This document shows, piece after piece, positions 19,436 through 22,729 of a stretch of 61,011 nt of DNA. The stretch comes from Actinomycetota bacterium (GTDB lineage Bacteria > Actinomycetota > Acidimicrobiia > Acidimicrobiales > VFJN01). Each line of letters begins with the position of its first letter. Positions within the stretch are counted from its first letter, which is position 1. The translations under genes were made by a program, and so were the position numbers. The DNA is taken from positions 1 through 61,011 of the forward strand of contig VFJN01000084.1 in NCBI GenBank assembly GCA_009886035.1, in the 5' to 3' direction. Under the pieces are notes generated by a model, which was given only the letters and a program-made list of their open reading frames with translations, searched no databases and was not told where the DNA came from.

Positions 19436-20180
19436 CGACCCCACTCCCCCCGGGGCGAACCTGCGCAGTGGCGGCCAACCGGCCATCCGCCACTACCCAC
19501 AGGCCCAGGCCACCGTCGGCCAGCGGCGCGGTGGATACCTGCACCTCACTGCCTCGCTCGATGGCGGTGCGGTGCTGCACCTCGGCTCGCACCGGCGCCC
19601 GCAGGTCGCGCCGAAGGGCCAGTGCCTCTTCCACGATCTGCCAGTAGACGGCGTTGTTCACATGGTGGAGCACGTCGAAATCAGTGACCCGGAGCGGCCA
19701 GCGGAATGCGCTGGCCCCCGAGGGTGCTACCTCAGGGTGGTCGAGCCGTGCCGTCAACCGTCGGCTACCGGCCGCCTCGCCGTAGATCTTCTCGAATCCC
19801 GCTGGTATGCGGGCTGGTCGGCCGGTGGCTCGATTCAACTTCACCCATGTGGTGGCCGCTTCCAGCACCCCGCCCCGCTCACCGTGCATGCTGATTCTCC
19901 GCTCCGCCCAATGACTCCCCGTACCCGAGCACCAGGTGACCAAGGCCATCGACTCGAGGTAGGCGGGGAAGGACTCCACCACGATCATGGTCTTTCGCAC
20001 CACCCATGCCTCCGCGTCGGGGAGCGCGGCGTCGGCCGTATCGTCGGCCGAGAGGTCCTGGAGAAAGCGGGCCGCACCGTCGAGGCGGAGGCGGCCGGCT
20101 GGGCTCACATCGGCGAGGCGAACTCGACGGGTGCCGGCAAAAACCCGACCCGTAGGGGGGCGCGCCACGAGGTCATCCAT
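19419..20180 (-). CDS. acyl-ACP thioesterase-like double hotdog protein
   Basis: The 253 residues contain two hotdog folds in tandem. The first has FAGTRRVRLADVSPAGRL and RFLQDLSADDTADA; the second has RVTDFDVLHHVNNAVYWQIVEEAL, the motif with the conserved Asn and His of plant and bacterial acyl-ACP thioesterases. It should release fatty acids from acyl-ACP or acyl-CoA. A TACGTT hexamer lies 8 nt before the ATG. With the acyl-ACP desaturase nearby it adds to a set of fatty-acid tailoring genes. Confidence 0.86.
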   Translation of the reverse strand: MDDLVARPPTGRVFAGTRRVRLADVSPAGRLRLDGAARFLQDLSADDTADAALPDAEAWVVRKTMIVVESFPAYLESMALVTWCSGTGSHWAERRISMHGERGGVLEAATTWVKLNRATGRPARIPAGFEKIYGEAAGSRRLTARLDHPEVAPSGASAFRWPLRVTDFDVLHHVNNAVYWQIVEEALALRRDLRAPVRAEVQHRTAIERGSEVQVSTAPLADGGLGLWVVADGRLAATAQVRPGGSGVASGSR

Positions 20181-20188
20181 AGCCCAGG

Positions 20189-20194
20189 AACGTA
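20189..20194 (-). promoter_or_regulatory. -10 hexamer of the thioesterase gene
   Basis: TACGTT read on the minus strand, 8 nt before the ATG at 20180. Confidence 0.5.
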
Positions 20195-20222
20195 CCCGTC
20201 TCAGGGGTTTCAGCGGGGCCGG

Positions 20223-20240
20223 CCGATTAATCGGTTGACT
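20223..20240 (+). promoter_or_regulatory. 12-bp palindrome next to a TTGACT element
   Basis: CCGATTAATCGG (20223-20234) is a perfect palindrome immediately followed by TTGACT (20235-20240). Downstream, three TAnnnT hexamers (20274, 20283 and 20292) precede the 84-residue gene, and CGTAG/CTACG (20272-20286) forms a small inverted repeat. The exact promoter is unclear, since the TTGACT is too far from the hexamers for a standard pair. The palindrome is probably a regulator site. Confidence 0.4.
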
Positions 20241-20318
20241 CGCCAGGGCCGGGCGTGGTCCGATGATGGGGCGTAGATTCCCTACGTTCGCTAAGTTTTC
20301 CCCCAGGAGACCGTGACC

Positions 20319-20573
20319 ATGTCCGCTCAGACGCACACCACCGCAGGCCGCACGGCCTCCGCCGGTGCCCCGCGCCTGAGTGTTGGCGCGGGCGACTTCG
20401 ATGCCACCGTCAGCACCGCGACCGCCATGTATGCCGGCGCCGTGGTCCATGCGATGGCTGGCGGGAACCACGCCATTTCCTGGACTAAGGGCGCCCTTGC
20501 CAAGCCGAGCACCTGCGTGGTGTTTGACAGCAAGAACCGCCCGACCCGGCCCCTCTCGGAGCTCTCGCTCTAG
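20319..20573 (+). CDS. 84-residue protein of unknown function upstream of whiB
   Basis: The frame starts at an ATG 8 nt after an AGGAG Shine-Dalgarno (a GTG two codons earlier is possible) and encodes a soluble protein rich in Ala, Ser, Thr and Gly. It has a single Cys and a polar C-terminus (DSKNRPTRPLSELSL). It is not recognised and has no signal or membrane segment. It is followed after 31 nt by a strong intrinsic terminator and then by the WhiB7-like gene. It may be a leader gene that controls whiB expression, or an independently expressed small protein. Confidence 0.6.
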   Translation: MSAQTHTTAGRTASAGAPRLSVGAGDFDATVSTATAMYAGAVVHAMAGGNHAISWTKGALAKPSTCVVFDSKNRPTRPLSELSL

Positions 20574-20604
20574 CTAAACCACAGCGAGACGCAGCCAACC
20601 GAGA

Positions 20605-20640
20605 GGCCACCGGGATTCCAACCCGGTGGCCTTTCTCGTT
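20605..20640 (+). terminator. intrinsic terminator/possible whiB attenuator
   Basis: A perfect 10-bp stem (GGCCACCGGG at 20605-20614 with CCCGGTGGCC at 20622-20631) has a 7-nt loop and is followed by TTTCTCGTT. It lies between the 84-residue gene and whiB. The 69 bases between it and the whiB start contain no TA dinucleotide, so no -10 of the local type. Confidence 0.85.
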
Positions 20641-20709
20641 GCGCCCCGCCCACCGATCTTCCACCCATCCACCGATCCATCCAACCCCACCACGACAAGG
20701 AGCAGGGCG

Positions 20710-21093
20710 ATGTTGCCCCAGCGCTACGACAACAACTTCGACGGTCCTGAAAACCGCGACAGCACCGAAGATCGCCAGTGGTGGGCCCAAGCCCGCTGTA
20801 ACGACTCCGCCGGCACCATGAGCGGGCTGTTCTTCAGCGAAGAACTGCACGACATCTCGACCGCCAAGCGGATCTGTGGACAATGTCCCGTGATGACCCA
20901 ATGCCTTGCCGGGGCGCTCGATCGGCGCGAGCCGTGGGGGGTATGGGGAGGCCAACTGCTGCTGCACGGCAGGGTTCTCACGAGCAAGCGGCGGCGGGGT
21001 CGGCCCCCCACGCTCGCTCGCCCGGAGGACCAGTTCCCGGACATTCCCATCCCGGTCCATCTCCAAAATCGCGTGGTCTACCAGATCGCGTAA
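20710..21093 (+). CDS. WhiB-family regulator, WhiB7-like
   Basis: The 127-residue protein has the four iron-sulfur cysteines of the Wbl family (C30, C56, C59, C65) and the glycine turn EPWGVWGG. After the turn, KRRRGRPP is an AT-hook in the same position as in WhiB7, the regulator of intrinsic antibiotic resistance that binds AT-rich DNA with the primary sigma factor. The C-terminus is longer than in mycobacterial WhiB7. The ATG at 20710 has an AAGGAG Shine-Dalgarno. No promoter is visible between this gene and the terminator upstream, so read-through control is likely. WhiB7 is best supported; another AT-hook Wbl is possible. Confidence 0.9.
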   Translation: MLPQRYDNNFDGPENRDSTEDRQWWAQARCNDSAGTMSGLFFSEELHDISTAKRICGQCPVMTQCLAGALDRREPWGVWGGQLLLHGRVLTSKRRRGRPPTLARPEDQFPDIPIPVHLQNRVVYQIA

Positions 21094-21298
21094 CCCCACC
21101 GTCACCGGCAGGGCCAGGCCACGGCGCCAGGCACCGCCGGTGCGAGGTCACCGCCTAGGGGCGGGCCGGGGCAACGGCCGCCAATTCGCACGGGCATTCC
21201 CCCCGTCGTGCGGGTTGTCCGACGACCGACCCCCGGCCTGCCCGCGGTCAACCTGCGTGCGCTCCGGCAGCGACGTGTGCCCCCGGGTGCGACGGCGA

Positions 21299-21304
21299 TA
21301 CCGT
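21299..21304 (+). promoter_or_regulatory. -10 hexamer of the tlpA-ccdA operon
   Basis: TACCGT, 7 nt before the GTG at 21312. Confidence 0.5.
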
Positions 21305-21311
21305 CAACGCT

Positions 21312-21884
21312 GTGCCGTCCTCCTCGCGATTGCCCTGGCCCCTCGTGGTGCTCTCCACGGTGCTGGCTCTCTTCGCGGCCGTGGGCACCTACCGGCTCTT
21401 GGACCGACCGGTCCCCCCTGAGCCCACCGTCACCGCCGAGAACAACATCTCCCTTACGCCGGATGAGCCCATCGACCCCGATGACGCCACCTTCACTACC
21501 TTCGACGATCAGACCGTGTCCTTCGCAGCGGTCTACGGCGCTCCGACGGTGGTAAACTTCTTCGCCTCCACCTGCGTCCCGTGTATCACTGAGATGCCAA
21601 TCTTCGAGCAAGTGCACCAGGAACTCGGCGATTCCGTTACCTTCCTGGGCCTAGCGGTAGCGGATCGACCCGAGGATGCCCAGGAACTCGTGACCCAAAC
21701 CGGGGTGTCGTACCGCACCGGCCAGGACCGCGACGGTTCGGTCATCACCGCGCTCGGCGGATCCTTTCTGCCCACCACCGTCTTGCTGGACAGCGACGGC
21801 ACCATCGTGGATGTCCACACGGGCGAGCTAACCGCGGCCGAACTGCGCGCCCTCATCGCCGACAAACTCGGCGTCCCCGGATGA
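21312..21884 (+). CDS. TlpA/ResA-like membrane-anchored thioredoxin
   Basis: The 190-residue protein has an N-terminal membrane anchor (WPLVVLSTVLALFAAVGTYRLL) and an extracytoplasmic thioredoxin domain. The redox pair is in NFFASTCVPCITEMP, and the cis-proline loop in GSFLPTTVLLD. CVPC-type members reduce disulfides, for example in apocytochrome c, using electrons from CcdA, whose gene follows with an ATGA overlap. The product may keep the haem sites of the CtaC cytochrome c domain reduced. Confidence 0.9.
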   Translation: MPSSSRLPWPLVVLSTVLALFAAVGTYRLLDRPVPPEPTVTAENNISLTPDEPIDPDDATFTTFDDQTVSFAAVYGAPTVVNFFASTCVPCITEMPIFEQVHQELGDSVTFLGLAVADRPEDAQELVTQTGVSYRTGQDRDGSVITALGGSFLPTTVLLDSDGTIVDVHTGELTAAELRALIADKLGVPG

Positions 21885-22729
21885 TCAACGCTCCCTTGGC
21901 CCTTGCCTTTGCCTCGGGGATGCTCACCATCGTCAACCCCTGTGGCTTTGCCATGCTGCCCGCCTACCTCGGCTACTTCCTCGGGCGCGATGGCGACGAC
22001 CAAAACCTGCGGACCAGCGTCGCCCGATCGGTGGGCGTTGGGCTTTCGGTAGCGGCCGGCTTCCTGTTCGTATTCGGCCTGGTGGGCCTCGCCACTTACC
22101 ACCTGTCGGTTCGTTTCAGCAGCGGCACCCCGTGGGCCACGATGCTCATCGGGGTGGTCCTGGTGGCGGTCGGGGTGACCATGGTGGCGGGCTACCAACC
22201 CAACGTGAACCTGCCCAAACTGCAACGCGGTGGCCGCACTCGTGAAAGCCGTTCGATGTTTGTGTTCGGCGTGTCCTACGCGATTGCTTCGATCTCCTGC
22301 GCCTTTCCCCTCTTCGCCGCCAATGTGGTGGGCACGCTCCGCCGGGAGAATCTGGCCTCGAGCGTGGCGGTGTTTGTGACGTACGCGCTCGGGATGACCC
22401 TCGTGCTGCTGGCCCTCACCGTCAGCCTGGGCATGGCCCGCCAGGGGTTGCTCCAACGTCTCCGTTCTGTTCTCCCCTACGTGACGCGTGCCTCCGGGGC
22501 TCTCCTGGTCCTGGCGGGCGCCTACCTCGTCCACTACGGCTGGTATGAGCGCGGGGTGCAACCCGGTGAAGTGGGACAGCGGTCGCCGTTGGTCGACCGG
22601 GTCACCGGAGTCTCCGACACCATCGCCGACTGGATCTACCGCGTGGGCCCCACCGAACTCGGTCTCGTGTTGGCGGCGGCGCTGGCCTCGCTGTTGATCG
22701 CCACCCTCGGCACCCGGGCTCGCCGTTAA
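21881..22729 (+). CDS. ccdA: CcdA-type thiol-disulfide transporter
   Basis: This 282-residue polytopic protein of the DsbD/CcdA family moves electrons from cytoplasmic thioredoxin across the membrane. The first helix has NPCGFAMLPAYLGYFLG with the conserved Cys and Pro, and the fourth has the second Cys in ASISCAFPLFAA. About seven helices can be counted, plus a short C-terminal addition. It forms an operon with the TlpA-like gene and is followed directly by a peptidase gene whose ATG abuts its TAA. Confidence 0.9.
   Translation: MINAPLALAFASGMLTIVNPCGFAMLPAYLGYFLGRDGDDQNLRTSVARSVGVGLSVAAGFLFVFGLVGLATYHLSVRFSSGTPWATMLIGVVLVAVGVTMVAGYQPNVNLPKLQRGGRTRESRSMFVFGVSYAIASISCAFPLFAANVVGTLRRENLASSVAVFVTYALGMTLVLLALTVSLGMARQGLLQRLRSVLPYVTRASGALLVLAGAYLVHYGWYERGVQPGEVGQRSPLVDRVTGVSDTIADWIYRVGPTELGLVLAAALASLLIATLGTRARR

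Follow-up and report, generated by a model that had tools for sequence, protein, structure and literature searches.

The locus considered here raises the question of how a whiB gene is expressed when a strong terminator stands between it and the transcript upstream. WhiB7 is a master regulator that helps bacteria survive ribosome-blocking drugs. The preliminary description of the window, by which we mean the whole 61,011-nucleotide stretch of DNA analysed, held that a WhiB7-like gene is apparently reached only by read-through of that terminator, perhaps under attenuation by an upstream reading frame. We conclude, with a probability of about 0.85, that this is an autoregulated whiB7 gene under a translation-sensing transcription attenuator with an upstream open reading frame (uORF). 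Evidence drawn from sequence supports assigning the locus to a known kind of control, the uORF attenuator of the whiB7/wblC type, in a distant and little-studied lineage.

Motif content, the match to a solved structure and the tree all support assigning the gene at 20710-21093 to the WhiB7 type, in agreement with the preliminary description. The gene product (P0001) combines the Cys ligand set C30/C56/C59/C65 with GVWGG and a C-terminal AT-hook. The Pfam model Whib matches it at E 5.5e-16, and among solved structures WhiB7 is the best match (E 2e-16), followed by WhiB1 (4e-8). The source genome, a 2.70-Mb assembly of 203 contigs, encodes six WhiB proteins. A maximum-likelihood tree with 41 rows, for which the program flagged long branches, places the window protein among 36 WhiB7-like sequences and splits off its five paralogs from the same genome with support of 100/99. 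The named relatives are Acidimicrobiales records: among those listed, 'Acidimicrobiales bacterium isolate C12_metabat.bin.16' stands closest (78% identity), and Microthrix and Ilumatobacter are among the more distant. On the 3' side of whiB7, positions 21312-22729 hold two frames which, by eye, resemble a thioredoxin-like protein (TlpA/ResA-type) and a CcdA-type membrane protein.

The leader features are collected in Table 1. Upstream of the uORF lies a promoter layout, TTAAT-CGG-TTGACT-N18-TCCGAT (20227-20264), from which transcription would start at about 20271. The pattern WWAWTNNNTTGAC-N17..19-TNNNNT has the whiB7 leader promoter as its sole match in the 2.7-Mb assembly. A search for a wider regulon found the strict box pattern nowhere in the assembly except at whiB7; a looser pattern returned three places, against two in a reversed control, and both places other than whiB7 looked like chance. 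The uORF ends 31 nt before the hairpin position 20605, just as first described. The 10-bp stem noted at that time is exact (20605-20614/20622-20631, with a tail to 20640); folding lengthens it to 14 bp, and a 161-nt segment surrounding it has a folding z-score of -4.96, which 0 of 200 shuffles equalled. An intrinsic terminator, with an imperfect U-tract, is predicted between uORF and whiB7. The hairpin is missing from the output of a simple terminator scanner, probably because its tail is a weak U-tract. A search of Rfam with window positions 19901-21400 gave no family match, returning two sub-threshold minus-strand matches only.

Table 1. Features of the whiB7 leader and gene, in window coordinates
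Feature	Position	Strand	Details
AT-rich WhiB7-type box, 5' of the -35	20227-20234	+	TTAAT plus 3-nt spacer CGG; assembly-wide pattern search
Predicted leader promoter	20235-20264	+	-35 TTGACT 20235-20240, -10 TCCGAT 20259-20264; conserved in genus
Shine-Dalgarno-like sequence of uORF	20305-20310	+	AGGAGA; 5-nt match plus ATG in 4/4 genus members
Leader frame (uORF)	20319-20573	+	84 codons plus stop; 84, 84 and 84 codons in genus, 80 in its more distant member
Antiterminator 5' arm, within the last ten uORF codons	20545-20569	+	CCCGG 20545-20549, CCUCUCGG 20552-20559, GCUCUCGCU 20561-20569
Antiterminator 3' side, includes terminator 5' arm	20583-20614	+	AGCGAGA 20583-20589, CCGAGAGG 20599-20606, CCGGG 20610-20614
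Intrinsic terminator (predicted)	20601-20640	+	stem 20601-20614/20622-20635, tail TTTCTCGTT 20632-20640; -29.5 kcal/mol
Shine-Dalgarno-like sequence of whiB7	20697-20702	+	AAGGAG; read in sequence
whiB7	20710-21093	+	ATG at 20710, stop ending at 21093, 127 aa; WhiB7-type Fe-S transcription regulator, AT-hook KRRRGRPP; motifs, Pfam, solved match, tree

The same arrangement was sought upstream of whiB7 homologues in 79 relative genomes, ranging from one genus to one order and including the source genome. Strong WhiB7-like matches (E <= 4.5e-24) occur at 59 places in 58 of these genomes. The remaining 21, some nearly complete, have no strong match, which suggests repeated loss of whiB7 within the order. 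WhiB7-like genes number two or three, in part arranged in tandem, in two genomes of the order (G012:C1:679964-681177, comprising L064 and L082; G184:C1:4345961-4347335 and 2510230). The analysis covered 57 WhiB7 loci, with L065 (the second copy of G012) and L067 left out; L070 is a duplicate of L008 among the surveyed loci. A uORF followed by a G+C-rich hairpin is present at 55 of the 57, with 14-33 nt between uORF stop and hairpin (25-29 nt in 40 of the 55). The device is missing at L035, which has no hairpin, and at L032, which has no leader frame; L032 (G006:C358) belongs to the window's own family, and L035 (G056:C1) lies directly 3' of a longer gene. The fit is poor at L025, L036, L062 and L064, the last being one of the WhiB7-like copies of G012 and having no convincing terminator in its leader, and no uORF start with a Shine-Dalgarno match was found at L017, L025 and L062. 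When close relatives (L008, L009, L010, L047 and L061) and three leaders without a usable start are dropped, the median uORF length is 62 codons (range 29-99, n = 47). The initial impression of an unusually long upstream gene is not upheld by these lengths, nor by the frames of 90-108 and 53-68 codons in probable Streptomyces and Mycobacterium whiB7 leaders, respectively.

Promoter architecture is shared as well. Of the 55 leaders, 50 have a WhiB7-type box followed by a TTGAC -35 element ahead of the frame, as compared with a mean of 0.63 and at most 3 in dinucleotide shuffles, and no such box occurs in the terminator-to-whiB interval of any of the 55. A covariance model, R1, was built from 16 leaders of families other than the window's. 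With a threshold of E <= 1e-4, whole-genome searches found matches to it in 65 out of 118 genomes from the order, few of them with a second place; the source genome gave no match at this threshold, its window leader being found at 20.5 bits only. In divergent leaders it is chiefly the terminator that R1 recognises, frequently on both strands, and the model is therefore not counted here as evidence for an antiterminator.

Folding of the window leader does reveal a putative antiterminator, in which the end of the uORF can pair with sequence that includes the terminator 5' arm (-33.3 kcal/mol, z -2.97). Across the 55 leaders the mean fold z-score is -3.66, and 48 fall below -2. In a swap test, uORF ends were exchanged between species in 10,000 random assignments. 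Native combinations of uORF end and terminator arm average -19.8 kcal/mol, versus -9.9 for between-species swaps (n = 55); the permuted mean has a standard deviation of 0.5, and the best of the 10,000 reached -12.0. Without close relatives the values are -19.7 and -10.1 kcal/mol (n = 50). As a control for position, uORF windows lying 45 and 90 nt further up gave -6.0 and -5.4 kcal/mol, and shuffled ends gave -6.4. Coevolution of the uORF end with the terminator 5' arm, as a predicted antiterminator conserved across the order, is supported. A simpler count of leaders with at least five arm nucleotides paired (53 of 55 native) was dropped as evidence, since shuffles average 29 of 55. When RNAalifold was applied to 16 leaders, the outer antiterminator helix was absent from its output; the columns concerned hardly vary and are also claimed by the terminator hairpin. 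Two layouts occur: in the window's group the arm precedes the uORF stop by 13-25 nt, and in a second group by about 25-37 nt. L042-L058 and L007-L031 differ in this respect, and the more distant type has an extra middle helix. In either layout, a ribosome that has come to the end of the frame, or close to it, would be expected to disturb the pairing arm.

At equilibrium, the terminator together with upstream folds is more stable than the antiterminator in all 55 leaders (-46.4 versus -33.9 kcal/mol in the window). Equilibrium folding was rejected as a model of the switch on this ground. The switch could therefore operate only kinetically, with the antiterminator forming before the 3' arm of the terminator has been made. 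Classical attenuators are thought to act kinetically. The same equilibrium result would suit a device in which Rho or another factor decides the outcome in place of the hairpin, untranslated uORF RNA being terminated and translation promoting expression, and a 252-nt untranslated GC-rich stretch would be a plausible target. We nevertheless consider this very unlikely, as hairpin and pairing partner coevolve across the order and a device based on Rho alone needs no such pairing.

A translation-sensing attenuator is thus the reading we prefer, and the attenuation by an upstream frame that was proposed at the outset gains support from the 55 of 57 loci with frame and hairpin, from the coevolved antiterminator and from the promoter box. 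The promoter with its WhiB7 box would start a leader that carries the 84-codon uORF, which is presumably translated. During free translation, a ribosome at the end of the uORF would cover the antiterminator 5' arm, which precedes the stop by 13-25 nt; the terminator hairpin would then form and transcription would cease before whiB7. A ribosome-targeting antibiotic, or a lack of charged tRNA, would halt or delay the ribosome at an earlier point of the uORF. Left bare by such a stall, the final uORF codons would pair with the terminator 5' arm as it emerges, and with the antiterminator formed, RNA polymerase would read through into whiB7. The WhiB7 product would in turn stimulate its own promoter.

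A different account takes the 84-codon frame for a small-protein gene of the ordinary kind that has a terminator to itself, with whiB7 driven by a separate promoter and no attenuation taking place. The frame is indeed conserved within the genus, at 51-87% identity, and a strong hairpin directly follows it. The peptide, however, is recognisable by sequence in only 4 of the 79 genomes, all of the window's genus, yet a frame occupies the same place at nearly all order loci. Among three close genus members, the ratio of replacement to silent changes is about 1-2 in the uORF, with 1.0-1.5 over its full length, versus 0.07-0.30 in whiB, on counts that are small for the uORF (about 4-8 silent changes per pair), and with these counts no amino-acid constraint was seen in any uORF segment of the genus comparison. 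The pairing of antiterminator and terminator arm, together with a WhiB7-type box that stands before the frame and never between terminator and whiB, also argues against a free-standing gene, and we regard this account as extremely improbable. To speak of an upstream 'protein', as the preliminary description did, is misleading. The uORF is probably not a functional protein gene, and a conserved 84-residue product, which we considered as a candidate, is most likely wrong given that replacement changes are about as frequent as silent ones where whiB is constrained. What appears to be kept is the frame, the position of its stop and the RNA pairing, the peptide appearing irrelevant. An arrest peptide was likewise considered; no motif is common outside the genus, and one may exist within it. 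Codons 52-75 of the uORF (20472-20543), 5' of the antiterminator, are conserved in the genus with equal silent and replacement rates, and this stretch may be an RNA element or a pause site.

With the frame kept, the peptide free to vary and no arrest motif common outside the genus, stalls anywhere in the frame are predicted to suffice; comparison of the leaders suggests that any stall in the uORF would do. According to a passage of PMC12121999, tests of stalling in the whiB7 uORF were still lacking. We put forward tentatively, as a possibility, that the leader frame of whiB7 acts as an elongation sensor independent of sequence, a design that would be common from Acidimicrobiales to Streptomyces and mycobacteria. 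If so, selection would maintain an open frame of tens of codons, the position of its stop and the pairing of its end, while the peptide drifts. Any stall in roughly the first 70 codons would open the switch, and sensitivity would therefore be set by the length of the frame and not by an arrest motif.

A more specific attenuator would sense mainly particular amino acids, namely alanine and threonine, through stalling at their abundant codons. Ala and Thr make up 16.9% and 10.1% of uORF bodies, respectively, compared with 14.9% and 9.2% in position-class shuffles (standard deviations 0.46 and 0.42), and of the 84 residues in the window uORF, 16 are Ala and 10 are Thr. By its title, a 2024 report is said to link whiB7 to alanine starvation in mycobacteria. 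The excess is small, however, and conserved runs of these codons are absent, so that we think it unlikely that sensing of these two residues is the main function. Amino-acid and antibiotic inputs to the attenuator are not mutually exclusive.

Whether read-through is the sole route to whiB7 is a separate matter. Direct reading bears out the early remark that the 69 bases between terminator and ATG (20641-20709) have no TA dinucleotide. The claim built upon it, that whiB is reached by read-through alone, is not proven: a TAnnnT element occurs in this interval in 4 of 55 leaders, below the shuffle mean of 8.3 though within the shuffle range of 2-15. Absence of TAnnnT from the window interval is weak evidence, because the probable leader promoter itself has TCCGAT as its -10 element. 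A second, weak promoter 3' of the terminator, giving basal whiB7 expression, would draw on this latitude in the -10 element and on the four relatives that do have TAnnnT; the lack of any TA in the window and the low count among relatives speak against it, and its existence seems to us improbable.

With these leaders placed in the known class, the range of an antibiotic-sensing attenuator grows to include an order whose members are mostly uncultured. The present analysis contributes the order-wide anatomy, the coevolved antiterminator, the box-bearing promoter and the finding of a frame that is kept while its peptide is not. In the literature searched we found no account of Acidimicrobiales whiB7 leaders, and earlier surveys may include the order. 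A uORF-mediated attenuator of whiB7 in Mycobacterium, or of wblC in Streptomyces, was reportedly described by Lee, Lee & Roe in 2022 and by Burian & Thompson in 2018. In the wider phylum, 55 of 296 genomes matched the WhiB7 search; a terminator scan covered 19 leaders, and detailed reading covered 17. The antiterminator is weaker or absent in some of these (0 of 10 arm nucleotides are paired in L109), and the strict order box pattern occurs in 0 of the 17. The terminator arm in the order is mostly GGCCGYCGG (GGCCACCGG in the window), whereas terminators of the probable Streptomyces and Mycobacterium leaders start GGCC(A/G)CGG. Taken together, the comparison suggests that the uORF attenuator is ancestral to WhiB7 control.

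According to passages in PMC11550727 and PMC13393426, translation of the whiB7/wblC uORF favours the terminator, and antibiotics or amino-acid depletion favour the antiterminator; summaries of this attenuator also stand in parts of PMC4128351 and PMC13236596. The predicted device of the window is alike in having a uORF with a Shine-Dalgarno sequence, a Rho-independent terminator, a mutually exclusive antiterminator and an autoregulated promoter, and unlike in its lineage, its unrelated uORF sequence and its TTGAC -35 element. The WhiB7/WblC box is given in a passage of PMC7157823 as GAAAWY, AT-rich and with 3 nt between it and the -35 element that follows in its own promoter. An AT-rich box, 3 nt and TTGAC recur in the window and in 50 of 55 leaders, not letter for letter as GAAAWY. 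In the amino-acid attenuators of trp and ilvB1, the position of a ribosome also picks between antiterminator and terminator, in kinetic competition (for ilvB1, as described in part of PMC13236596). Unlike the whiB7 uORF, in which none is seen, their leader frames contain runs of control codons. The classical trp leader is also far shorter than the whiB7 uORF found here. A further parallel is the toiL uORF of Escherichia coli topAI, which belongs to another gene and organism, and in which, according to a passage of PMC12121999, a single uORF senses several classes of ribosome-targeting antibiotics.
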